From positions 496,001 to 560,000 of the forward strand of contig OX638327.1 of assembly GCA_951812745.1 (NCBI GenBank): a stretch of DNA of 64,000 nucleotides, written 5' to 3'. This DNA comes from an uncultured Nitrospirales bacterium (GTDB lineage: Bacteria; Nitrospirota; Nitrospiria; Nitrospirales; UBA8639). A program made the translations under genes and the position numbers. The notes under the pieces are model-generated. The model did not search any database. It was not told the origin of the DNA and saw only the letters and a list, made by a program, of their open reading frames with translations. The first letter of the stretch is position 1. Each line of letters opens with the position of its first letter. Shown in pieces: positions 29,931 through 42,889 of the stretch.

Positions 29931-30836
29931 TTAGTAGCGTCGCAGGGCAGGGATCTTCGTGTTCCATAAGTGCATGCGCGCGACGCGCCAAAGTTGTTCC
30001 AGCACGGCATTGAGATCAGGGGCTGAACGGGTCAACAGTTTCACCACCAGGCCCGGCCCTGAAGGTTCTGATACTCCTCCCAACACGTCGTTGGTCTTCT
30101 TCTCGAATATCGTTGTTACATCGTTCTTGATCCGTTCCCACGTTGGCGATGGAACGTTATCGCTGACCATGAAGAACGATCCCACGTAATTCCACTCCCT
30201 GGTAAACGGCAGGCATGGATTGTCCTGGCCCGGTGAGAGGCAATACCGCTCCTCGAGGGAGTTCCCGTCCGAAAGCCGGATCGTAATCCGGTTCTCAAAA
30301 GAGGAAAATTGCCATCGTTCGCCGCGGACGACTCGCCCGGCTGCCAGGGCGTCCCAGAGGATGAGGGACGCGCCCGTGTCGAGTCGTACGGTTATGGTTT
30401 GGTCAAAACGTGACCCTGCGAATGGAATGACAGGTTCGGGCACCCATTCACAAATGGCGTTGACCCCGACGCGCAGGTCGATGGACTGGCTCGCGGGCTT
30501 GTCCAGCGTTCGATAGACTCTGGTGGCCGAAGGGGTTGTGAAGAGCACGTGTGAGTCTTTCCCCAATTCTGCCTGAAGAAAGCACGTATCTCCTCCAACG
30601 AATCCTCCAGACGGATTCGTGAGGAACGTCGTTGCACACCCCGTTTGGTCAAGGTACAGGGGTTGGAAGAAATACCAGGGGTGGGAAAATCGTGAACGGG
30701 TAAAAACGGTCTTACCGTTTCGATTGGCACATTCAACGAACAATTCACCTTTTCGCGCGCGAGCAGATCCCTGAGCGAATGGTGGATGTTGCGGAATCAA
30801 CACGGGATGTTGTTCGACCTCACGTAGTCCGCGCAT
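29931..30836 (-). CDS. ureD: Urease accessory protein UreD
   Basis: A 301-aa scaffold that binds apo-urease and helps UreF and UreG deliver nickel. The family motif NPSGGFVGGDTC, the region GAGSRFDQTI-like (here FAGSRFDQTI) and the block WDALAAGR identify it. The ATG at 30836 is preferred; a TTG two codons earlier is next to the ureG stop. It is the last gene of the urea operon, the order ureA-B-C-F-G-D being complete except for ureE. Confidence 0.93.
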   Translation of the reverse strand: MRGLREVEQHPVLIPQHPPFAQGSARARKGELFVECANRNGKTVFTRSRFSHPWYFFQPLYLDQTGCATTFLTNPSGGFVGGDTCFLQAELGKDSHVLFTTPSATRVYRTLDKPASQSIDLRVGVNAICEWVPEPVIPFAGSRFDQTITVRLDTGASLILWDALAAGRVVRGERWQFSSFENRITIRLSDGNSLEERYCLSPGQDNPCLPFTREWNYVGSFFMVSDNVPSPTWERIKNDVTTIFEKKTNDVLGGVSEPSGPGLVVKLLTRSAPDLNAVLEQLWRVARMHLWNTKIPALRRY

Positions 30837-30842
30837 GGGCAA

Positions 30843-31508
30843 TCAATTGGTGGAACGCGGTCGAACCTGGCGTTCCACCCATTCCGCCACGCGGCTGAGT
30901 CCTTCTCCTGAGTGCAGGTTGGTGAAAACGAATGGTCGTTCACCACGCATGTGACGACTGTCCCGATCCATAACGTGGAGGTCGGCTCCCACGTGCGGGG
31001 CCAGGTCGATTTTATTGATGACGAGCAGCCCGGACCGGGTGATGGCCGGTCCGCCTTTTCGTGGGATCTTGTCTCCCGCCGCCACATCGATGACGTAGAT
31101 GACCTCATCCACCAGGTCGGGGCTGAAGGTAGCGGCCAAGTTATCTCCTCCGCTTTCCAAAAACACCAATTCCAGACCGGGGAGACGGTTGACCAGTTCC
31201 TCAATGGCGCTTTGATTATGGGAGGCATCTTCGCGTACGGCCGTGTGGGGGCAGCCGCCGGTTTCGACGCCGAGAATCCGTTCTTCGGGTAACACGCCGC
31301 GCCTGGTCAGAAACTCGGCGTCTTCTTTCGTGAAAATGTCATTCGTCACGACCGCGAGTTGAACGCGCGATTGCAGCGTGCGGGCCAGGGCCTCGACCAA
31401 AGCGGTTTTGCCCGAGCCGACTGGCCCTCCGATGCCGATGACCGTGACGTTCCGCGTCCTTCGTGTCGTAGGCGCGCCACCGCCGGGTAGATCTTCAATG
31501 AGATGCAT
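30843..31508 (-). CDS. ureG: Urease accessory GTPase UreG
   Basis: A 221-aa nickel-binding GTPase for urease activation. Walker A is [17 protein letters not shown], the conserved nickel site CPH lies in [16 protein letters not shown], and [13 protein letters not shown] is the guanine-specificity region. There is no N-terminal His-rich stretch, so nickel storage must come from elsewhere; no ureE is present in this operon. It starts 4 bases after the ureF stop. Confidence 0.96.
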
Positions 31509-31512
31509 GGTG

Positions 31513-32199
31513 TTACGACCTGAACATTCTGGACGTCAATTGCGCATGCCGCATGGCGTAGATTTCCTGGATGGGGGTCCAGGCCGTCAATGGCGCGCAA
31601 GCGTCAATGTTTCGGCTGAGTTCTTCGATCAGGGGGATCCACGTCTCCAACAATCGCTGGCCTTCCCGCTGGCCGATGGGCAGTAATTTGTATGAAGCCG
31701 ACACAAAGCCGACGCCGGCCTGATACAGAAACCCGGCGATAGCCTGTTGTTGAGTCCATCCGATCTGTTGAAAGACCAGGCCGAAGGTCACGGCCAGGTG
31801 TCCCGGTGAACGTCCCGACTCAACCGCCGTTGAGAAATCTTCAAGGATGCCCGGGTTGTCTTGCGGATGGATCGCATGACGTAACAGGCTCTGTCCCATC
31901 TGACGACTGGCTGCCCGTGTTTCCCGGCATAGTTTCATCGACTCAAGGGCCTCATCGACCTGCAGCACGCCTTTGAGATCGCTTTTGAAGGAAGCCTGGT
32001 AGGCTTGGGCCAGGGCCACGGCTTCGCAGGTGCCCAATCCCCATCGAAAATAATCGACCACGTATCGCTGCAGGTCTTCCGCAGTTTGGACGTGACCTTC
32101 CTGAACGGCGGTTTCCAAACCCGAGGAAAAGGCGAATCCGCCCGATGGGAAAAAGGTGTCGAGATAGCGGAACCCTTGAAGGAGCAGGCGAGTGTCCAT
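31513..32199 (-). CDS. ureF: Urease accessory protein UreF
   Basis: A 228-aa helical protein that, with UreD, couples UreG GTP hydrolysis to nickel insertion. Landmarks are [16 protein letters not shown], the block [15 protein letters not shown] and [13 protein letters not shown]. The ATG at 32199 is preferred to the TTG at 32214. It lies downstream of ureC by about 36 bases on the same transcript. Confidence 0.94.
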
Positions 32200-32235
32200 G
32201 ATGGCTTGCGTCAACGAATGATCACGAATGAAGCG

Positions 32236-33963
32236 CTAAAATAGAAAATACCGCTGCGCCATGGGCAGAACTTCCATGGGTTCACAGGTCAATCGTTGAC
32301 CATCGGCTTTCACGACGTAGGTCTCGGGATCCACTTCGATGTGGGGCGTGGCGTCATTCAGTTTGAGATCGCGTTTGTCGATGCGTCGACAATCCCGAAC
32401 GGCCACGACCCGTTTTTGCAGACCCAGGCGTTCGGGGATTCGGCCATCAATCCCGGCCTGTGAAAGAAACGTCACACTCGTGTTGAACGGGGCTCTCCCC
32501 CAAGCCCCGAACATGGGACGACTCAGCACCGGTTGCGGCGTGGGAATGGAAGCATTGGGATCGCCCATGGCCGCTTCGACCAGAAAGCCGCCCTTGACGA
32601 CGAGATCCGGTTTGACTCCAAAGAAGGCCGGGTTCCAGATCACCAGGTCGGCTAATTTTCCGACTTCCACCGATCCGACTTCAGAGGCCATGCCGTGCGT
32701 GATGGCCGGATTGATGGTGTATTTGGCCACATAGCGTTTTGCCCTGAAGTTGTCATGCCGTTCCGTTGTCGGTTCGACGCCTGACGGCTTCAGGTGCCCG
32801 CGCTGGACTTTCATCTTGTGGGCGGTCTGCCACGTTCGCGTAATCACTTCGCCGATCCGGCCCATGGCTTGCGAGTCCGACGACATGATGCTGATCGCGC
32901 CCATATCATGCAGGATGTCTTCCGCGGCAATGGTTTCTCCGCGAATGCGCGATTCGGCAAAGGCAATGTCTTCGGGAACGCGAGGACTCAAATGATGACA
33001 CACCATCAACATATCCAGGTGTTCGTCAATGGTATTCACCGTAAACGGCATACTCGGGTTGGTGGAGGACGGCAGGACGTTCGGTTCCCCGCAGACGCGG
33101 ATGATGTCGGGGGCATGGCCGCCTCCCGCGCCCTCGGTATGAAAGGTGTGAATCGTGCGTCCCCCAAATGCACGAATACTGTCGTCCACGAAACCCGCCT
33201 CATTCAACGTGTCGGTGTGAATGGCGACTTGCACGTCATATTTGTCGGCGACGTCCAGACAGGTTGAGATGGCCGCGGGCGTGGTGCCCCAATCTTCGTG
33301 CAACTTCAGGCCGATGGCGCCGGCTTGGACTTGCTCAACCAACGCGTCGGGAAGGGAAGCGTTTCCCTTACCCAGAAAGCCCAGGTTGACGGGAAATCCG
33401 TCAGCACTCTCCAACATGCGACCGATGTTCCATGAACCGGGCGTACAGGTCGTGGCATTCGTGCCTGTGGCCGGACCCGTTCCGCCGCCCAGCAAGGTCG
33501 TCATTCCCGAGGACAAGGCTTCGCGAATCAGTTGCGGGCAGATGAAATGGACGTGGCTTTCGACGCCGCCGGCCGTCACGATTTTTCCTTCCCCCGCGAT
33601 GACTTCGGTTCCGGGGCCGATGGTCATGCCCGGCGAAACGCCTGACATGAGGTCCGGGTTGCCGGCTTTGCCAATGGCGACGATACGTCCGTCGCGAATG
33701 CCGATATCCGCTTTGACGATCCCCCAATAATCAAGAATGATCGCGTTCGTCACGACGAGGTCCAGGGAACCGTTGGCGCGCGTGGCGGTCGGGGATTGTC
33801 CCATCCCATCCCGAATGACTTTCCCCCCTCCAAACTTGGCTTCCTCACCGGGCGTCGTCAGGTCCTGCTCCACCTCCACGAGAAGCTCGGTATCGGCCAG
33901 GCGGATTCGATCCCCCACGGTAGGGCCGAACAGATCCGCATATTGACGGCGCGGTATGTTCAT
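32236..33963 (-). CDS. ureC: Urease alpha subunit UreC
   Basis: A 575-aa catalytic subunit that hydrolyses urea to ammonia and carbamate using two nickel ions. Active-site elements are all present: nickel ligands in HVHFICPQ, the carbamylated Lys in GLKLHEDWG, further ligands in AIHTDTLNE and [12 protein letters not shown], the catalytic His in [13 protein letters not shown] and Asp in [10 protein letters not shown]. The start overlaps the ureB stop by four bases (ATGA). Length is normal. For Nitrospira, urease yields ammonium for assimilation or for feeding ammonia-oxidizing neighbours. Confidence 0.98.
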
Positions 33964-34481
33964 GAGGCGTCCTCCTCGTCCATAAATCCCAGTTCGGCTG
34001 CACGCTTCAGCGCGTGGGTCTTGACCCTGGCATCATCGAGCGCGCCGTTGGTCAAGCCGTTGATGCCATAGGCAATGCGATTTCCTCCAAAGGCAACGAG
34101 CGAGACGTGTTTTTCTTCCCCCGGTTCGAAGCGCACGGCGGTGCCCGCCGGGATTTTCAGTCGAAAACCAAAGGCCCGTTCCCGGGAAAACCTCAAGGCA
34201 CGATTCACTTCAAAAAAGTGGCAATGCGAGCCCACCTGAATGGGCCGGTCACCATGGTTCATCACCGTCAGCGACAGAGTCGGGCGACCGGCAAAGGCGA
34301 CGATGTCGTCCGTACCCAAGAGGATTTCACCGGGAATGACAGGCGCCTGTTCGGCCGCAAGAACCCCTTGTTGTTTGGGCTTGCGTGGTTTTGCGACTCT
34401 TGTGCTTTTTGCCGTGGCGCGCGTGCGGGATTGTTTCGGTTTTTGAGGGGACGGTTTCGGTGGAGGCTGTTTTTTTGCCAT
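33960..34481 (-). CDS. ureB: Urease beta subunit UreB with a basic N-terminal extension
   Basis: The urease small subunit, here 173 aa against the usual 100-120. The conserved part begins at residue 49 with [11 protein letters not shown] and includes [29 protein letters not shown] and VALVAFGG-like (here [10 protein letters not shown]). The first 48 residues are almost only Lys, Arg, Pro, Gln and Ala and have no counterpart in ordinary UreB. The only ATG with a usable upstream context is at 34481; an internal start would have to be non-ATG. The extension may aid subunit contacts or simply be a disordered tail. Confidence 0.92.
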
Positions 34482-34599
34482 GATCGAAGCTCCATCAGTG
34501 AAACATTTGCCTGGGACTTATGAGAAGCGCATACGCGAAAACAAAAACACACGAATTACAAGTTCCGGCATGAGGCGTGACGATGCCCCTGCCCCTGCC
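34482..34599 (-). other. 118-base gap between ureA and ureB
   Basis: This is the widest intercistronic gap inside the urt-ure operon. I see no terminator hairpin and no convincing promoter, so transcription probably reads through. Confidence 0.4.
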
Positions 34600-34902
34600 T
34601 CATCGGATGGGATTATGGACGGTCACGAGTTTTGTTCCATCGGGAAAGGTGCCTTCCACCTGAATTTCCGGCAGCATTTCCGGCACGCCTGACATGACGT
34701 CATCCCTGGTCAATAACGTTGCCCCATCACTCATCAGGTCGGAGACGGAGCGTCCCTCCCGAATGCCTTCCAGTATCGCGGCGGTAATGTATGCCACTGC
34801 CTCGGGATGATTTAACTTCAATCCACGGGCTTTTCGATCTTTCGCCAGTTGTCCCGCGACGTAAATGAGGAGTTTCTCTTGTTCTCTTGGGCTGAGATGC
34901 AT
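34600..34902 (-). CDS. ureA: Urease gamma subunit UreA
   Basis: A 100-aa urease structural subunit of normal size. The N-terminus [16 protein letters not shown] and the block [21 protein letters not shown] are characteristic. The ATG is 4 bases after the urtE stop, so the transport and enzyme genes are one operon. Confidence 0.97.
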
Positions 34903-34906
34903 GAGT

Positions 34907-35617
34907 TCATACCACCAGGTGTTGTTTAACGGCTTCCTCCGATAATTCCGAGACGGGGCCCGATGCCACTACCGCGCCTTTGGCCATGAGCACGAACGTA
35001 TCCGCCAGGCGGGACGCAAATTCAAAATATTGTTCCACCAATAAAATAGCGAAACGGCGTTGAGTTTTAAAGCCTTCGATGACTCGCTCGATTTCGATGA
35101 CGATTGACGGCTGGATGCCTTCTGTCGGTTCATCCAATAACAACAGTTTGGGTTGCGTCAACAGCGCCCGGGCAATGGCGACCTGTTGCTGTTGCCCGCC
35201 GCTGAGAACGCCACCGGGCCGGGCAAGCAGTGCGGGCAGAGCCGGGAAAAGCGTGTAGACGTCGTCATAGGCCGATTCGGCGGTTTGCTGGTTTTTAGCT
35301 CCTTGACGGGCTTCAAACCCCAATCGGAGATTTTCTTCGACCGTCAGATGAGGAAACAATTCCCGGCCTTGAGGGACGTACGCCACGCCCCGCGCCACCC
35401 GTCGATCGGGAGATTCTCCTGTTACGTCATCGTGATGCAGGTACACGTGACCGGTCCGTGGTTTGAGTAAGCCCATGATGGTTTTCAACAGGGTCGTTTT
35501 GCCGACGCCGTTGCGTCCCATGAGGCAGACGACCTGTCCCTCCGGGACATCCAGGGAAATATCCCGCAGGATATGACTTTCCCCATAAAACACATTGAGT
35601 GTTTCACACCGAAGCAT
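34907..35617 (-). CDS. urtE: Urea ABC transporter ATPase UrtE
   Basis: A 236-aa LivF-type ATPase. Walker A is [17 protein letters not shown], the signature [15 protein letters not shown], and Walker [15 protein letters not shown]. With UrtD it powers high-affinity urea import through UrtB and UrtC. Its start lies inside the end of urtD (14-base overlap), suggesting coupled translation. Confidence 0.95.
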
Positions 35618-36434
35618 CGGCTTCCTTTTGTCGTCCGAGATAAATTTCGATCACGCGAGGATCGTTTTGAATATCCTCCACGAATCCCTCGCACAGGACG
35701 GTGCCTTCGTGCAGGACCGTGACCGTTTTGGCGATTTGTCTGACGAATTCCATGTCATGTTCAATCACGATCAGGGAATGCTTCTTCGTCAGCGATTGAA
35801 GCAGTTCGCCGGTTTTTTCCGTTTCCTGCTCCGTCATGCCCGCCACGGGTTCATCAATGAGAAGCAGTTCGGGGTCCTGAAGGAGGACCATGCCGATTTC
35901 CAGCCATTGCTTTTCGCCGTGCGACAGTTGGCCGGCAAGCACGTCAGCCTTATTCGTCAATCCGATGATCTCCAAAGTCTGAGCAATTTTATCAGACTCA
36001 TCGGAATTTAGCCTGGACAATAAGGTGGCAAAGACCCCTTTGTTCTTTCGACGGAGCGAAAGGTCGAGGTTGTCCCACACGGGGAGGGTGGTATAGACCG
36101 AAGGGGTTTGGAATTTGCGGCCGATGCCCAACGCCGCGATCTCATTTTCCCTGCGGCCGATCAGGTCCGTGGCCTGACTAAAGACGACCCGCCCGGAGAT
36201 TGGTTGTACTTTACCCGAGATCACGTCCAAGAGCGTGCTCTTGCCGGCTCCGTTGGGCCCGATCACCACTCGAAGCTCCCGGTAGTCTACGATCAGGTTG
36301 AGCCTGTTCAAGGCCTTAAACCCGTCAAAATCAACCGTCACGTGGTCGAGATAGATAATCGACCGTTGGTGCCGGGACCCGATGACCTTTCGTCCGTCCG
36401 GCTGTTCTGTGGGAGCTGAAACGTGTTCGTCCAT
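35604..36434 (-). CDS. urtD: Urea ABC transporter ATPase UrtD
   Basis: A 276-aa LivG-type ATPase with Walker A (GPNGAGKSTLLDVISG), signature LSHGEKQWLEIGMVL and Walker B (LLLIDEPVAGMTEQE), the last two being hallmark variants of UrtD. The ATG at 36434 is preferred to an upstream TTG at 36443. It is preceded by urtC with only about 9 bases between them. Confidence 0.95.
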   Translation of the reverse strand: MDEHVSAPTEQPDGRKVIGSRHQRSIIYLDHVTVDFDGFKALNRLNLIVDYRELRVVIGPNGAGKSTLLDVISGKVQPISGRVVFSQATDLIGRRENEIAALGIGRKFQTPSVYTTLPVWDNLDLSLRRKNKGVFATLLSRLNSDESDKIAQTLEIIGLTNKADVLAGQLSHGEKQWLEIGMVLLQDPELLLIDEPVAGMTEQETEKTGELLQSLTKKHSLIVIEHDMEFVRQIAKTVTVLHEGTVLCEGFVEDIQNDPRVIEIYLGRQKEADASV

Positions 36435-36443
36435 GGCAAACAA

Positions 36444-37601
36444 TTAGTCGGTCCCTGCGGCGTTTTCGACTTTCGATTTCCCGAAAGGAAGCATCGCATA
36501 CGCCTTCCGGAGTAGTCCCACAATTCCCTTGGGGAATAACATGACGACGGCGATAAAAAGCCCGCCCAGGAAAAAGGGCCAGAGTTCGGGAAAATGGTTG
36601 GTCAACGTGCTGCGCATGTAGTTGACGCCCGCCGCTCCGATGATGGCGCCCGAGAGTGTCCCCCGTCCTCCCACGGCCACCCAGATCACCATCTCGATCG
36701 AGGGGAGGACGCCTATCTGGTTGGGCGTGATAATCCCGACCTGCGGGACGTAGAGCGCGCCTGCGAGACCAGCTAACCCGGCGGAGATCACGAACACAAA
36801 CAACTTGTAACTCGCGGGTGAGTACCCGGAAAAAAATACGCGCTGTTCGCAATCACGAATGGCGATCAACACGCGTCCCGCCCGGGATTGGGTGATCCAC
36901 CGGCAGAGAAGATAGGCCAAGCCCAGGAACAGGATGGTCACCATGTACATGACGAGCTGGGTTTCAGGGTCATTCAACGAAAACCCCTGAATGTGTTTGA
37001 AGTCGGTCAACCCATTCGTTCCGCCCAGGTTGGTTTCATTGCGATTGAAGACCAACCATGCGACGAGTGCGAGCGCTTGCGTAATAATGGAAAAATAGAC
37101 GCCGCGAATCCTGCTGCGGAAGACGAAGAACCCGAAAATTGCCGCGGCGGCCATCGGCACCAGGACTATGGCCGCCAATGAAAAGGTCAGACTGTAAAAC
37201 GGTTTCCAAAACCAGGGAAGCTCTTCGACCTGGTTCCACACCATGAAGTCGGGAAGGGCATTGCCATAGACGCCCTCCGTTCCGATCCCCAACATCAGGT
37301 GCATGCCCATGGCATAAGCGCCCAGCCCGAAAAACACGCCGTGGCCCAAACTCAAGACGCCGGTATATCCCCAAATCAGATCAATCCCCAGTGCTAAAAT
37401 GGCAAACGCAAAAAATTTACCCAATAGGTTCAGGGTAAAGTCGGACACGTGAAAAAGCGAATCCTCGGGCAATACATTGAGGAGAGGCACACCCGCGAAG
37501 AGGAACACTCCCACGATCCAGAATGCCGGACCTGCACCCACGTGAGCAGCCACGCTTGAGAGGCACGTCGTGAAGCGGCCTCGTGGATGGTCAGGAGTCA
37601 A
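36444..37601 (-). CDS. urtC: Urea ABC transporter permease UrtC
   Basis: A 385-aa LivM-type inner-membrane permease with about ten helices. Family landmarks are LGIDLIWGYTGVLSLGHGVFFGLG, FGFFVFRSRIRGVYFSI and NETNLGGTNGLTDFKHIQG. Its start overlaps the end of urtB by 11 bases. The C-terminal tail is normal for UrtC. Confidence 0.95.
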   Translation of the reverse strand: MTPDHPRGRFTTCLSSVAAHVGAGPAFWIVGVFLFAGVPLLNVLPEDSLFHVSDFTLNLLGKFFAFAILALGIDLIWGYTGVLSLGHGVFFGLGAYAMGMHLMLGIGTEGVYGNALPDFMVWNQVEELPWFWKPFYSLTFSLAAIVLVPMAAAAIFGFFVFRSRIRGVYFSIITQALALVAWLVFNRNETNLGGTNGLTDFKHIQGFSLNDPETQLVMYMVTILFLGLAYLLCRWITQSRAGRVLIAIRDCEQRVFFSGYSPASYKLFVFVISAGLAGLAGALYVPQVGIITPNQIGVLPSIEMVIWVAVGGRGTLSGAIIGAAGVNYMRSTLTNHFPELWPFFLGGLFIAVVMLFPKGIVGLLRKAYAMLPFGKSKVENAAGTD

Positions 37602-39147
37602 GGTGTCGTCCTTTCAGTGCAAAGAGTCCGGAAGGCCGGATCTGGAGGAAGAGGATGATGAGCACGAGAATGATCACCTTCCCGTACACGGCGCCGAAAC
37701 CGGGTTCCAATAATTTATTGAGTGTGCCGATGCCGAAAGCGGCGGTAATCGTTCCGGCGAGTTTTCCGACTCCACCGGCGACGACGACCATGAACGAGTC
37801 CACAATGTAATTCCGCCCGAGTTCGGGATCCACGTTTCCTACCAAGGTGAGGGCGCTGCCGGCCAAGCCTGCCAAGCCTGAGCCGAAGGCAAAGGTGTAG
37901 GCGTCCAACTTCCTGGTGGGAATGCCCAAGCAGGCGCTCATGTCGCGATTTTGTAAGACGGCGCGTACCCGAAGACCGATGCCCGTTCGAAACAACAGCA
38001 AATAGATGCCGGCGACGCAGAAAAGAGCCAGGAAGATGATGAAAAGCCGGTTGTAAGGAAGTTGTACGCCGACCACGACCTGTGCGCCGCCCCTGAGCCA
38101 GCTTGGGGCCTGGACTGCCGTGAGATCTCCGAAGATGAGGCGGGCGGTTTGGATCAGGACGAGCCCGACGCCCCACGTGGCGAGTAATGTCTCGAGGGGC
38201 CTTCCATAGAGGAATCGAATGAGCGTGCCCTCCAGGATCCATCCGATGAACGCTGCAACGAAAAATGCACAGGGGAGGGCAAAGAAGAAATAATAATCGA
38301 AGAGGTGTTCGCCGAGGTACGCTCTGAACCCTTCCTGCACGACAAACGTGGCATAGGCTCCGATCATCATCATTTCACCATGCGCCATATTGATGACACC
38401 CATGAGCCCGAAGACAATGGCCAGTCCCAGGGCCATGAGAAGCAGAATGGACCCAAGACTCAGGCCTTGCAAGAGCATTTCGATGCCTCGTGTGACGTCC
38501 TGCCATTTCTGTATCCGGCGACTCGCTTTTTCCGATTCGTCTTTCAATGTTTGCTGTTCGAGATTGTCGGCTGCCTGGTTTGCCAAGTCCTGTAAAAGCG
38601 GAAGGGCCGCGGCGCTGCGCATGTCGCTCAATTTCTGAATGGCCGTGAACTTCTTTTGCGGGTCGGCGCTTTCCAGGTTGAGTAAATGAATGGCCTCTTC
38701 CAGGTCGTAGCGAACCCAATGCTCCTTTTCACCTGACAACGCTTGCTTGAGGATGGGCAACGCTTCCGGCGTGCCTCGTGCACCAAGATCTCTGGCAGCG
38801 GCGCGCCGGGTTTCCTTGTCCGGACTGGCGAGCCCCGCTCTATTTTTGAGCAGGTTGATGACGGGTTTGATCAGACGTCGGACGCGCCGGTTCGTATTTG
38901 AGCGAAATTCTTCAAGTTGAGGAAGCAGGGCGGGATCGCCGTTTTTTAGGAGATAATCAGCCGCCATCTTTTTTTCAGGCCATGGGCCTTCAATGAGCGC
39001 GGTCATGGCCTCTTGCACGGTCATGACGCCGGACGATCCCGGAGGTAATTCCTGAGCCATGGCAAGGCTCAACACGGACCAGGAAAAAAACACCAGCCAC
39101 GTGAACAAAACAGATATGAACGATCGTTTCATGATGTTGGGTCTCAT
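37591..39147 (-). CDS. urtB: Urea ABC transporter permease UrtB
   Basis: A 518-aa LivH-type permease. After a signal peptide (FISVLFTWLVFFSWSVLSLAMA) comes an extra N-terminal domain of about 190 residues with HEAT-like repeats (DPALLPQLEEFRSNTNRRVR, ARGTPEALPILKQALSG), which is a known trait of UrtB as opposed to LivH. The membrane part has LGLAIVFGLMGVINMAHGE and AGGVGKLAGTITAAFGIG. Starts at 39183, 39147 and 39132 are all in frame with no strong ribosome site; I chose 39147 for a compact signal peptide. Confidence 0.93.
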   Translation of the reverse strand: MRPNIMKRSFISVLFTWLVFFSWSVLSLAMAQELPPGSSGVMTVQEAMTALIEGPWPEKKMAADYLLKNGDPALLPQLEEFRSNTNRRVRRLIKPVINLLKNRAGLASPDKETRRAAARDLGARGTPEALPILKQALSGEKEHWVRYDLEEAIHLLNLESADPQKKFTAIQKLSDMRSAAALPLLQDLANQAADNLEQQTLKDESEKASRRIQKWQDVTRGIEMLLQGLSLGSILLLMALGLAIVFGLMGVINMAHGEMMMIGAYATFVVQEGFRAYLGEHLFDYYFFFALPCAFFVAAFIGWILEGTLIRFLYGRPLETLLATWGVGLVLIQTARLIFGDLTAVQAPSWLRGGAQVVVGVQLPYNRLFIIFLALFCVAGIYLLLFRTGIGLRVRAVLQNRDMSACLGIPTRKLDAYTFAFGSGLAGLAGSALTLVGNVDPELGRNYIVDSFMVVVAGGVGKLAGTITAAFGIGTLNKLLEPGFGAVYGKVIILVLIILFLQIRPSGLFALKGRHLDS

Positions 39148-39242
39148 CAATCGGCTATCCGAACCATTGTGCCCGACTCTCATGGCTCAGTCAGCACAAG
39201 CGCGGGTTCAGGGTCACGAGCCGACCCTGAACCCGCACCGTT

Positions 39243-40610
39243 TTACGCCTTCTTGTACGTGCCTTTGTGATTGACCCAGTCACATCCCTTATCAGGGCTG
39301 GTAAATTCACTCCAGGGTTCGGGTCGCACCAGGTCCGTTTGGGAAATGATCGTAAATTGTCCGTCTTTGCGAATCTCGCCGATCAGCACGGGCTTGTGGG
39401 TATGATGGTTCACCGCATCCATCTTCTTCTTGCCGCCGGGGGCCTCGAACTCCAGGCCGTACACGGCTTGGCGCACGGCGTCCACGTCCGTGCGACCGGC
39501 CTTTTCCACGGCCTGTTTCCAGACGTGGACGCCGAAATAGGCGGCTTCAATCGGATCGTCGGTGACTCGTCCGTTTCCACCCGGCAGTCCGTTCTTCTGA
39601 CAATAGGATTTAAAGTCTGACACGAATTTCTTGTTTTCCGGCGTGTCAACGCTCTGATAATAATTCCAGGCAGCCAGATGTCCGACTAACGCGGTCGTGT
39701 CCATGCTGCGAAGTTCATCTTCGGCCACACTGAAGGCCATGATGGGCACGTCTTCGGACCGGAGACCCTGATTGGCGAATTCCTTGTAAAACGGCACGTT
39801 GCTGTCTCCGTTGATCGTGCTGATCACGGCGGCGTCGCCGCGTCGGGAAAATTGCCGTACGTTGCTGACGATGGTCTGGTAATCCTGGTGGTGGAACGGG
39901 GTGTATTCCTCGCCGATATGGGAAGCGGGCACGCCTTTGGCGAGCAGCATCGCCCGTAAAATTTTGTTCGTCGTCCTGGGATACACGTAATCCGTCCCCA
40001 ACAGGTAGAATTTTTTGTAGTCTCCGCCTTCCTCGCTCATCAGATAGTCCACGGCGGGAACGGCCTGCTGGTTGACGGCGGCTCCGGTATAAAACACGTT
40101 CCGCGAACATTCTTCCCCTTCATATTGCACGGGATAGAACAGCAACCCGTTGTTGCTTTCAAACACGGGCAGCACGGATTTGCGACTCACGGACGTCCAA
40201 CAACCAAACACGGCGGCGACTTTATCGACCAGGAGGAGTTGTTTGGCCTTTTCCGCAAACAAATCCCAATTCGAGGCGGGATCGACGATCACGGGCTCGA
40301 TCATCCTCCCGAGAACACCTCCCGCGGCGTTGATTTCATCAACCGCCATCAGCACCACGTCTCTCAGTGAAACCTCGCTGATGGCCATTGTGCCACTCAA
40401 GGAATGCAATACGCCTATTTTAATGGGTTCTTTGTCGGCTGCATATGACAACGCGTAGTTTCCCAGGTTGCCTAGAAGCGCGGCGATGCCGAATCCCGCT
40501 GCCGTTTTTCCGGCGTCCGTGAAAAATTGGCGCCGGCTTTTCGCAGGTATTTGGTCGAGCGGGTTCTCCGTTTTGCTGGCCTCCGGAATGAGTGCTTTTG
40601 GTATATTCAT
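39243..40610 (-). CDS. urtA: Urea ABC transporter substrate-binding protein UrtA
   Basis: A 455-aa periplasmic binding protein of the Leu/Ile/Val-type family. It carries a twin-arginine signal ([20 protein letters not shown]), implying export in folded form. The mature part has [15 protein letters not shown] and [20 protein letters not shown], both specific to UrtA rather than generic amino-acid receptors. The ATG at 40610 follows GAGAGG at good spacing; a longer upstream frame exists without such a site. It lies between the porin gene and urtB. Confidence 0.95.
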
Positions 40611-40678
40611 GTTTTTCCTCTCTTTCAATGTCACGTTGTAATGTTGATTCGCTCTCTTCTCAGACAGTCGATCGATCG

Positions 40679-41893
40679 TTAGATCTGCCACTGAAGGGCC
40701 AGCTTGATGGCACCGACGTCGTCACCGGTGACACCTGGCGTCCAATTGCGTCCCTTCGTGGCAATATCGCCATATTGATAAAAGAGTGAAATCTTGGCGT
40801 TATGCCCGTCGATGATATAATTCGTTCCGAATTCAATTTCACTTCGACTGGTGCTGAAGTCCGGATTGTTCGCCGTATACCGAACATAAGGTTGCAATTG
40901 TCCGATCCCTAATTTTTGGGGAAAAAGGTACAACCCCGTCGCCGTCCAGGAATCTCCGTCGAACAGGCAAAAGCAGCCGGGGCCACCTTCGGCCAAAGCT
41001 TCATCGAAGGTAGCCTGAGACATTCCGGTATCAAACGCTTTATATTCTCCTTCAAAGGTCAGGACGCTCTTGTTCGGCAGGACTTTTTCCATCAGGAGAT
41101 CGGTACTGTAGCCTGTGAAATCCGATTGATTGGCGGCTGTGCCGGCCCCGTCTTCGTGATGTTGTATGGCGAAAGCCAGGGTCAGGATGTCTCCGCCTTT
41201 GCCGTAATAGGTGCTGCTGGTGTAATAGCCCGGGTTTTTTTCCACGTCCCAGAAGTTGTAGCTGAAACGACCCGCCCAAAGCAGGTTGTCACCCGTATTC
41301 GGACGTCCAGCCATACCCGAATGATCGACTCCGTCAAACACGCCCACGACGTAGGTCAGCCGTTTGTCTTCGAACAAGGCTCCCCAGAGGTTCACGCCGT
41401 CGTCACGGCCAAACCGACCGGCCACGAAGTTGCCGAAATCCGACGGGTAAAACGGCGTCTTGTTGAAATCAAAAGTGTTTTGAAAATAGGGACCGTCGAG
41501 TTCGGCGCGATCCGACGGGACCAATTGCCGGCCGGCCCAGATATTGATGTACTGATTGAACTCGAATTTGCCGATGGCGTCGAGGACGATCATGGAGCCC
41601 TTGCTGTTGTCACCGAGGCAATTCGTACAGTCCGTGTTGAACTCGATTTTCAGGTACTTGTGAATTTGCCCGTTGACGTAGAGCCGCATATTCTCCAACC
41701 CAAAATGCTTACTCCAATTCTCTCCATCTGCTGCATTATTTTCCTGTGCGAAGAAATGGACTCGTGCCCCGGCGCCGATACTCAGCCACTTGTTATCACC
41801 GAATTCGAGTTTCGGACCGGCAAATGCAGGCAGTGCGATCAACAACATCGCGAAGAAAACGATATTGAACGTGGTGTATTTGAATATAGTCAT
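40679..41893 (-). CDS. Outer-membrane porin of the urea operon (FmdC-like)
   Basis: A 404-aa beta-barrel porin. After the signal peptide ([16 protein letters not shown]) the sequence shows alternating polar/aromatic strands, for example [34 protein letters not shown] and the closing [12 protein letters not shown], which ends in an aromatic-rich outer-membrane strand. As first gene of the urea operon it presumably admits urea or short amides through the outer membrane, the role proposed for FmdC-type porins in Nitrospira. AAGGA lies nine bases upstream of the ATG at 41893; ATG 41899 is the alternative. Confidence 0.85.
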
Positions 41894-42079
41894 GGACATC
41901 TTTCCTTTTTCTTTCAGAATCAATGTTGCAAAGTCGTCTTTCACGAACACCCAAGAAGCACAAAATCTTTCGGCATAAGGCTTCGGCAATGCGGGAAACA
42001 CCTTTGTTTCCTTCGAATAGACGGAACGCACTGTTCATCCGTTTGTCGCTCTCTTTTTGCCGTTATGAATGAGATGGAC

Positions 42080-42123
42080 AAAAAAAAACGCCCTTCTGGT
42101 TTAAACCACAAACCAAAAGGACG
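42080..42123 (-). terminator. Intrinsic terminator in the urea operon leader
   Basis: Read on the minus strand, a 14-base arm (42123 to 42110, starting CGTCCTTTTGG) pairs along its full length, with two G-U pairs, with 42102 to 42089 around a 7-base loop. Nine T follow (42088-42080). It lies 187 bases before the porin ATG and shares its left arm with the hexaloop hairpin at 42117-42134, so it is likely conditional. Confidence 0.85.
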
Positions 42124-42134
42124 TCGATGTCCTT
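42117..42134 (-). promoter_or_regulatory. Hexaloop hairpin matching the ANTAR antiterminator target
   Basis: On the minus strand AAGGAC-ATCGAC-GTCCTT forms a perfect 6-bp stem with a six-base loop that has A at position 1 and G at position 4. These are the conserved loop bases of RNA targets of ANTAR proteins such as NasR, NasT and AmiR. Its 3' arm is part of the terminator, so the two folds exclude each other. Confidence 0.65.
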
Positions 42135-42151
42135 GCTCATTATTTGAGGCC

Positions 42152-42180
42152 GGTAAGGAAAACCCCTTCGTCTCCCTACC
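42152..42180 (-). promoter_or_regulatory. Upstream leader hairpin, candidate first ANTAR stem
   Basis: GGTAGGGA pairs with TCCTTACC (one G-U). The stem extends by weaker pairs to a small loop around GAAGGGG. If a G-U pair closes it, the six-base loop AAGGGG also has A1 and G4, but this needs a bulged C, so the match is imperfect. Confidence 0.4.
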
Positions 42181-42201
42181 GTGCCGTCTTATGGTTGAAG
42201 G

Positions 42202-42230
42202 CTTATATCGGAATGGTTTTTAAATGTCAA
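42202..42230 (-). promoter_or_regulatory. Near-consensus sigma-70 promoter of the urea operon
   Basis: On the minus strand TTGACA (42230-42225), exactly 17 bases, then TATAAG (42207-42202). Transcription would start near 42195, giving a leader of about 300 bases that includes both hairpins and the terminator. This is one of the best promoters in the window. Confidence 0.75.
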
Positions 42231-42274: not shown

Positions 42275-42889
42275 TTAAGGATGTTCTTCTTTGCTGAACC
42301 GGCCGGCTATGATGATTTCATCCAAGGGGCGTCTGTCGTTCGGACGTTCCATCTCTTGAAGCTGAGGGGGTAAGGATTCCTTGGGCGCGCGCTTTCCAAT
42401 GGCGATCATAGCCAATACTTCGTAGTTTTCGGGCACGTGCAGTTCTCTCCTGGCCTTCTCATAATCAAATCCCTGCATGCCGTGTACGACCAAACCCCGT
42501 CGTGTTCCTTCCAACGCCAGATTTTCCCATGCCGCACCTGCATCGAAGGCATACGTGGCGGCGGGTTTGTCATTACGTTCGAAGAGCTTTCTGGACGTGA
42601 CGACGACCAAGGCAGCGGCCTGCTGCGCCCATGCTTTATTCCCTTCTGCCAGTAGGTCCACAAACGTGTCCCAGAACGCAGTTTGTCGCTTCGCATAGAC
42701 AAAGCGCCACAGTTGCCCATTATACGACGACGGAGCCCAGCGAGCCGCTTCAAACAGCGGCATGAGTTCATCGTCGGACAGTTCCTCGCCGGTCATCGAG
42801 CGGGGAGACCATCGATTGACGATAAGGGGATGAATGTCATAGTTCGTCTTTCGCTGCTCTCGTACTTCTTCCGTCAGTGAATCGTTCAT
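42275..42889 (-). CDS. Nitroreductase-family flavoprotein
   Basis: A 204-aa FMN-dependent oxidoreductase. The family signature is clear: RWSPRSMTGEELSDDEL, FEAARWAPSSYNGQLWRFV and a C-terminal block VLAMIAIGKRAPKESLPP. The natural substrate is not predictable and could be a nitro compound, quinone or flavin. A good AAGGAG site precedes the ATG. Its stop lies about 45 bases upstream of the urea operon promoter, so it is a separate unit. Confidence 0.88.
   Translation of the reverse strand: MNDSLTEEVREQRKTNYDIHPLIVNRWSPRSMTGEELSDDELMPLFEAARWAPSSYNGQLWRFVYAKRQTAFWDTFVDLLAEGNKAWAQQAAALVVVTSRKLFERNDKPAATYAFDAGAAWENLALEGTRRGLVVHGMQGFDYEKARRELHVPENYEVLAMIAIGKRAPKESLPPQLQEMERPNDRRPLDEIIIAGRFSKEEHP

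Follow-up and report, generated by a model that had tools for sequence, protein, structure and literature searches.

What decides whether a Nitrospira-type bacterium transcribes its genes for urea uptake and hydrolysis? Nitrospira are key nitrite oxidisers and complete ammonia oxidisers, and we found no report in the literature on what turns on their use of urea or of other nitrogen sources. The locus analysed here lies in a 64,000-nucleotide stretch of a Nitrospirales genome (the window), where a short leader on the minus strand precedes a long run of urea genes. A preliminary description had read this leader as an ANTAR-type antitermination element.

A dual-hexaloop leader precedes a continuous urea operon

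The first operon gene encodes an outer-membrane-type porin (40679..41899, minus strand, ATG at 41899), recognised by sequence reading and without a Pfam match. It is followed on the same strand by urtA, for the binding protein of a urea ABC transporter (39243..40691; Peripla_BP_5 by Pfam), urtB, urtC, urtD and urtE, for the rest of the transporter (34907..39183; urtB by Pfam, the others by sequence reading), and the urease and accessory genes ureA, ureB, ureC, ureF, ureG and ureD (29931..34902; the first three by Pfam, the others by sequence reading). Gene order and, in part, Pfam thus confirm that the leader stands before porin-urtABCDE-ureABCFGD, as had been proposed. The gaps between these genes are mostly below 120 nt, and no second convincing terminator was found inside the operon. 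Since the operon is continuous, read-through at the leader would govern the porin, UrtABCDE and urease jointly. The sole Rfam match in the 64-kb window is to 5_ureB_sRNA (33518-33816, plus strand, 106.6 bits), antisense to the coding start of ureC; it probably reflects coding-sequence similarity and not a conserved antisense RNA.

The leader begins with a promoter read from the sequence, TTGACA at 42225..42230 and TATAAG at 42202..42207, separated by a 17-nt spacer. This promoter had been noted previously without its strand; it runs from 42230 to 42202 on the minus strand, as do all the elements that follow. Next comes a hairpin found by folding, P1 (42151..42181), whose hexaloop GAAGGG at 42169-42164 has G at positions 1 and 4. 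The hairpin P2 (42117..42134), our putative antiterminator, has the sequence AAGGAC-ATCGAC-GTCCTT; it is the 6-bp hairpin of the preliminary description, at 42134-42117, and its loop at 42128-42123 indeed carries A1 (42128) and G4 (42125). A C-G pair closes both loops. The linker between P1 and P2 is 22 nt, or 16 nt if the complete P1 stem is left out of the count. An intrinsic terminator hairpin (42087..42125; about -21 kcal/mol by folding) follows, with a tract of nine T at 42080..42088. Its 5' arm includes the 3' arm of P2, as had been claimed together with the T tail, and the stem given previously as 14 bp has 17 pairs counting G-U. P2 and the terminator overlap and are therefore mutually exclusive.

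Paired hexaloops had been invoked earlier from known ANTAR targets, with P1 itself overlooked, as was a third hairpin. P1 and P2 are both small hairpins with 6-nt loops and stems of at least 3 bp, and so form the dual hexaloop that ANTAR RNAs are expected to have, with G4 in both loops, A1 in P2 and G in place of A at position 1 of P1. The third hairpin, P3 (42011-41994; feature 41994..42011, GGAAAC-AAAGGT-GTTTCC), also has an A1/G4 hexaloop, lies 3' of the terminator and begins about 68 nt past the T tract.

The 126-nt leader folds more stably than its shuffled counterparts (z = -5.4). We also composed a descriptor consisting of a P1 hexaloop, a C-G-closed P2 hexaloop with a purine at position 1 and G4, an overlapping terminator and a T tract. 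Across both strands of the window (128 kb) the full descriptor matched once, and it did not match at all in 7.68 Mb of dinucleotide-shuffled window, where its P2 and terminator part alone matched seven times; as the descriptor was composed with the leader already known, these figures are a match rate and no blind test.

The urea leader is conserved in related genomes

A DNA search recovered the leader in 8 of 49 genomes of the family, all of the same genus, and adding a more diverged leader (G002) brings the count to 9 of the 14 genus members. All nine same-genus genomes with a close porin have the leader, and the five that lack the porin also lack the leader. Among named records, the motif occurs in Nitrospira sp. 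and Nitrospirales metagenome bins. The -35 element is kept in eight leaders (as TTGACT in one of them), and TATAAG is unchanged in the related leaders. Among relatives the P2 loop varies at position 3 (ATCGAC or ATTGAC) while A1 and G4 stay constant. These two bases are also retained in G002 (AGTGAC), and in G017, from another genus, the loop AATGAA has only A1, G4 and A5 in common with ATCGAC. Eight genomes have GARGNN as the P1 loop, whereas G002 has AACGAC; P1 was not evident in the urea leader of G017. The leader, hexaloop and terminator are thus conserved in related genomes, which was one of the checks suggested at the outset.

P1 pairs persist despite base changes, both in the eight urea leaders and across four operons. 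In the eight close leaders taken alone, the covariation score was equalled in 20 of 500 shuffles, there being too few pair changes for those pair counts to decide the matter on their own. The P3 stem is exact in seven of the nine same-genus urea leaders, shortened in G001 and absent in G010; its loop appears as AAAGGT, AACGGT, GACGGT or AAGGGT over a mostly unchanged stem, and G002 has an extra GAC-GAAGAA-GTC hairpin after P3. No leader of this kind accompanies the more distant porin relatives found in G035, G037 and G047 (63-65% identity), and ANTAR control of the urea genes would therefore not be universal in the family.

The genome encodes a single GAF-GAF-ANTAR protein

An ANTAR-type leader calls for an ANTAR protein. 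The search of the full genome that had been suggested found exactly one (E 4.7e-20, profile search); likewise each of the 49 family genomes has exactly one above the Pfam cut-off, and none is present in 14 well-known control genomes. The protein comprises two GAF domains and a C-terminal ANTAR domain (PF03861, 67.9-72.9 bits against a cut-off of 27.3), and we found no NIT or receiver domain in it. The expectation of a NasT/AmiR-like regulator is therefore met in the ANTAR domain and not in the rest of the molecule, which is a one-component GAF-GAF-ANTAR protein lacking a receiver domain.

We compared the protein with EutV at the 11 RNA-contact residues listed in PMC8934654 (structures 6WSH/6WW6). 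Seven are identical (R142, K143, K149, E160, M172, N173 and R175) and two are changed conservatively (K147R and Y164F); the remaining changes are R168Q and R177S. Rv1626 also has Q at position 168, and T at position 177. The states of these residues are invariant in the 25 orthologues that we read.

The gene sits in the order aroB-ANTAR-nadE, with nadE adjoining in 30 of 30 family loci and aroB in 27 of 30; in the source genome, glnD follows nadE. Among solved structures, those closest in sequence to the first GAF domain include PtsP-type (3ci6, 3trc) and NtrC-like (4g3k) GAF domains, which makes a nitrogen-related ligand for the GAF domains plausible.

Leaders of the same design precede other nitrogen operons

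We built a covariance model (R1) from the urea leaders only, and its weak matches include full P1/P2/terminator leaders of other operons in other genomes. These stand before a BBP2-type porin gene in G036 (with G034 added by a matching leader), before a sigma-54 activator gene in G011 and G005, and before nirC-nirA in G016. In G036 the porin is followed by amtB-glnB-amtB-glnA, as it is behind the related leader of G006. We discarded as chance those weak R1 matches (L073, L074, L075, L079, L093 and others) that had no terminator, most of them lying in coding frames. Target genes throughout were identified by Pfam or by sequence reading.

With a second model (R2), the leader of the sigma-54 activator turns up in the majority of genus members, among them the source genome (C1:1244270-1244333, equal to L114 6271-6334, plus strand), where the activator gene is followed by nirC; relatives have nirA as well. 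P2 loops of this nirC class have 7 nt (AATGAAC) instead of six, and the leader in G013 has compensated P1 changes. A regulatory cascade from ANTAR to sigma-54 is thus possible. The porin-amtB-glnB-amtB-glnA leader of the source genome (C1:656482-656537, equal to L150 2483-2538, plus strand) has the same design. Its P1 contains GGGAC-ATCGGT-GTCTC and its P2 is AGGAC-GACGAA-GTCCT; the bases at loop position 1, A in P1 and G in P2, are swapped relative to the urea leader. Given this arrangement in the amt leaders of the genus, a purine at position 1 may suffice. Finally, a P2-like hexaloop with terminator (GGGAC-AAAGGC-GTCCT; C1:1541794, equal to L010 9795-9780, minus strand) lies between the GAF-ANTAR gene and nadE-glnD. 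P1 was not evident in this leader of the source genome; it occurs in most family genomes, and A1 and G4 of P2 are conserved family-wide. The ANTAR protein may therefore control the neighbouring PII uridylyltransferase gene. The source genome has about four predicted targets, of which the urea operon is one.

To describe the common motif we aligned 24 leaders from the four operon classes, selected by motif and not homologous from end to end. All of them have G4 in both loops and a C-G pair closing each loop; loop position 1 is taken by A or G, and the third position is unconstrained. The P1-P2 linker measures 17-24 nt in most leaders, and the terminator overlaps the 3' arm of P2 in all four classes. 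Four of the six P1 pairs are changed on both sides. Covariation across the alignment (0.323 against 0.159 in shuffles, reached in 0 of 500) drops when the pairing partner is slid and is stronger than in the eight close urea leaders alone; as the leaders are non-homologous and were chosen by motif, this score leans towards structure and supports a shared recognition element without being a measure of inherited covariation.

R3, the covariance model built from these 24 leaders, has matches in 41 of the 41 family genomes searched. Twenty further places that we read lie before an amt operon (11), nirC-nirA (4), a sigma-54 activator with nirC-nirA (3) and an nrt-type transporter (1), with one partly masked. 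Within the same order, we sampled a sister family (f2), in which R3 matches occur in five of five genomes that have an ANTAR protein and in none of five that do not. Best E values for the sister-family matches are 4e-9 to 2e-7, and among the targets are a porin gene, nadE, nirC and an nrtA-like gene. This co-occurrence, together with the recurrence before other nitrogen operons, supports the ANTAR reading first advanced for the urea leader.

In one sister-family genome (G103), a dual-hexaloop leader (L223) is followed by nirC and then the cyanase gene cynS, which suggests that cyanate use is under ANTAR control there. Tandem R3 matches about 50 nt apart occur at G057:C5:1046404-1046571 and G124:C11:85942-86109, the upper G057 match preceding nirC and the lower G124 match an nrtA-like gene; these are possibly double antiterminators. 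Marginal phylum-level matches in G052, G070 and G073 have no terminators and the match in L220 lies within a coding frame, and we regard all of these as chance.

A model for control of the urea operon

We consider it very likely that the urea leader is an ANTAR-type antitermination element and one target of a predicted nitrogen-assimilation regulon. Binding by the ANTAR protein, the direction of control and nitrogen status as the signal we infer, the mechanism following that of EutV and NasR (PMC3369931, PMC8934654, PMC7496416). Under this model, RNA polymerase would start at the 42230/42202 promoter and, by default, the nascent RNA would fold the 42125-42087 hairpin, so that transcription stops before porin-urtABCDE-ureABCFGD. 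When nitrogen is scarce, the predicted signal, the single GAF-GAF-ANTAR protein would bind the P1 and P2 hexaloops as they emerge. P2 would thereby be held folded, its 3' arm denied to the terminator, and the polymerase would read through. We predict that the leaders of porin-amtB-glnB-amtB-glnA, sigma-54 activator-nirC (nirA in relatives) and nadE-glnD are bound by this protein too, which would make it a general regulator of nitrogen assimilation.

Some features fit this model less well: G1 in P1, the long linkers, the lack of an evident P1 in two leaders, the 7-nt nirC loops, R168Q and R177S, and the leaderless porins of G035, G037 and G047. A wider proposal can also be framed, in which the GAF-GAF-ANTAR protein beside nadE-glnD is the master nitrogen regulator of the Nitrospiraceae and of the ANTAR-bearing part of the sister family, its GAF domains sensing nitrogen status, and in which assimilation of urea, ammonium and nitrite/nitrate (in the sister family possibly also cyanate), GlnD and the sigma-54 activator are all switched at elongation. 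We would give this proposal even chances.

Could the leader be something simpler? The terminator is strong on its own and a codirectional nitroreductase ORF ends just upstream, at 42275, so the hairpin might be an ordinary intrinsic terminator, either that of the nitroreductase gene or a constitutive attenuator, with an accidental hexaloop and a porin gene served by its own later promoter. Between the nitroreductase gene and the terminator, however, lies a conserved promoter, and in G009 promoter and leader are intact although the DNA upstream is different; we therefore reject the hairpin as the terminator of the upstream gene. The 5' arm of P2, AAGGAC, is superfluous for the terminator and is nevertheless retained and paired (with a G-U pair in G009), and the same design recurs before other nitrogen operons and tracks the presence of the ANTAR gene. 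An ordinary terminator is thus most improbable.

Mutually exclusive hairpins are also typical of attenuators that work through a leader peptide or a riboswitch, and the leader might be a nitrogen-responsive attenuator of one of these kinds or of another RNA-binding protein, a reading to which we give very little credence. A candidate peptide of 25 codons (ATG AGC AAG GAC ATC GAC ...) does run through P2 and the terminator, and an in-frame ATG or TTG precedes P2 in seven of the nine same-genus leaders. In G012 and G002, however, that frame lacks a start codon, peptide lengths vary widely, no ribosome-binding site is evident and, by inspection, the leaders of the other operons have no such frame; with neither start codon in those two genomes nor ribosome-binding site, we reject the leader peptide. 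As to a riboswitch, no Rfam family reaches its gathering score in the urea leader, where sub-threshold matches are at chance level, and across operons the loops agree only in a purine at position 1 and G4, a pattern suited to recognition by an ANTAR protein and not to a ligand pocket common to all of them.

That the leader is an ANTAR RNA whose protein represses or sequesters, by promoting termination or through the downstream P3, deserves as little credence: hexaloop RNAs can sequester ANTAR proteins (EutX), single hexaloops are bindable (PMC8934654) and P3 is a conserved hexaloop 3' of the terminator, but the overlap of the P2 3' arm with the terminator in four operon classes is the antiterminator geometry of EutV, NasR and AmiR, and G010, which lacks P3, keeps P1, P2 and the terminator.

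Comparison with known ANTAR systems

Antitermination by the ANTAR protein thus stands as our preferred reading, and the hypothesis that it provides is concrete: each genome would have a single protein, a readable RNA motif and about four targets, and one protein may govern nitrogen uptake in these nitrifiers. GAF-ANTAR proteins, an architecture called uncharacterised in 2012 (PMC3369931), thereby gain candidate targets. We found no report defining the targets of a GAF-ANTAR protein, and should the wider proposal above hold, this regulator would be the first of the GAF-ANTAR type whose RNA regulon is defined. The preliminary description knew of no earlier report for Nitrospira, and we found none either; the main text of PMC3369931 does not mention Nitrospira, and its Table S2 could hold an overlapping entry.

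A close structural parallel is EutV of Enterococcus faecalis, as portrayed in PMC3369931 and PMC8934654, with two hexaloops, G4 (and A1) and C-G closing pairs. As in the eut operons, the 3' arm of P2 is shared with the terminator, one ANTAR protein would serve several leaders, and most RNA-contact residues are kept. EutV is a REC-ANTAR response regulator, whereas the Nitrospira-type regulator is GAF-GAF-ANTAR. The leaders differ in their longer linkers (17-24 nt in most), in having G1 in one hairpin of the pair, in P2 loops that reach 7 nt in the nirC class, and in target genes. The published accounts have EutV and NasR favouring A at loop position 1, with mutation of A1 lowering EutV function (PMC3369931, PMC7496416), and NasR SELEX showed a preference for A1/G4 and a terminal C:G pair (PMC7496416); the leaders described here suggest that ANTAR recognition can tolerate G at that position. 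As for spacing, the linkers of eut leaders are 5-12 nt, and 14 nt impaired EutV; the published ANTAR covariance model permits a variable linker, so 5-12 nt is no defining limit, though the urea leader exceeds it.

Also close are NasR (NIT-ANTAR) and NasT (a receiver-type ANTAR protein), which control nitrate assimilation (PMC7496416, PMC3795266). They too act on nitrogen-assimilation operons by antitermination, as is predicted here, and NasR is likewise a one-component ANTAR protein. Unlike NasR and NasT, the Nitrospira-type protein has no NIT or receiver domain, and the genes predicted to be under its control extend to those for urea, ammonium, PII and glutamine synthetase as well as nadE-glnD. 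Some of these have precedents: according to the main text of PMC3369931, ANTAR RNAs were predicted in 2012 before urea and ammonium transporters, PII, nitrite reductase and glutamine synthetase, with predicted ANTAR control of six nitrogen-metabolism transcriptional units in Desulfotomaculum acetoxidans. The Nitrospira system differs from that of D. acetoxidans in belonging to another phylum and in comprising a family-wide regulon, one GAF-ANTAR orthologue group and a link to nadE-glnD. The kind of RNA is thus already known from EutV, NasR and the nitrogen regulons predicted by Ramesh 2012, and the family-wide regulon proposed here would be a new instance of it.
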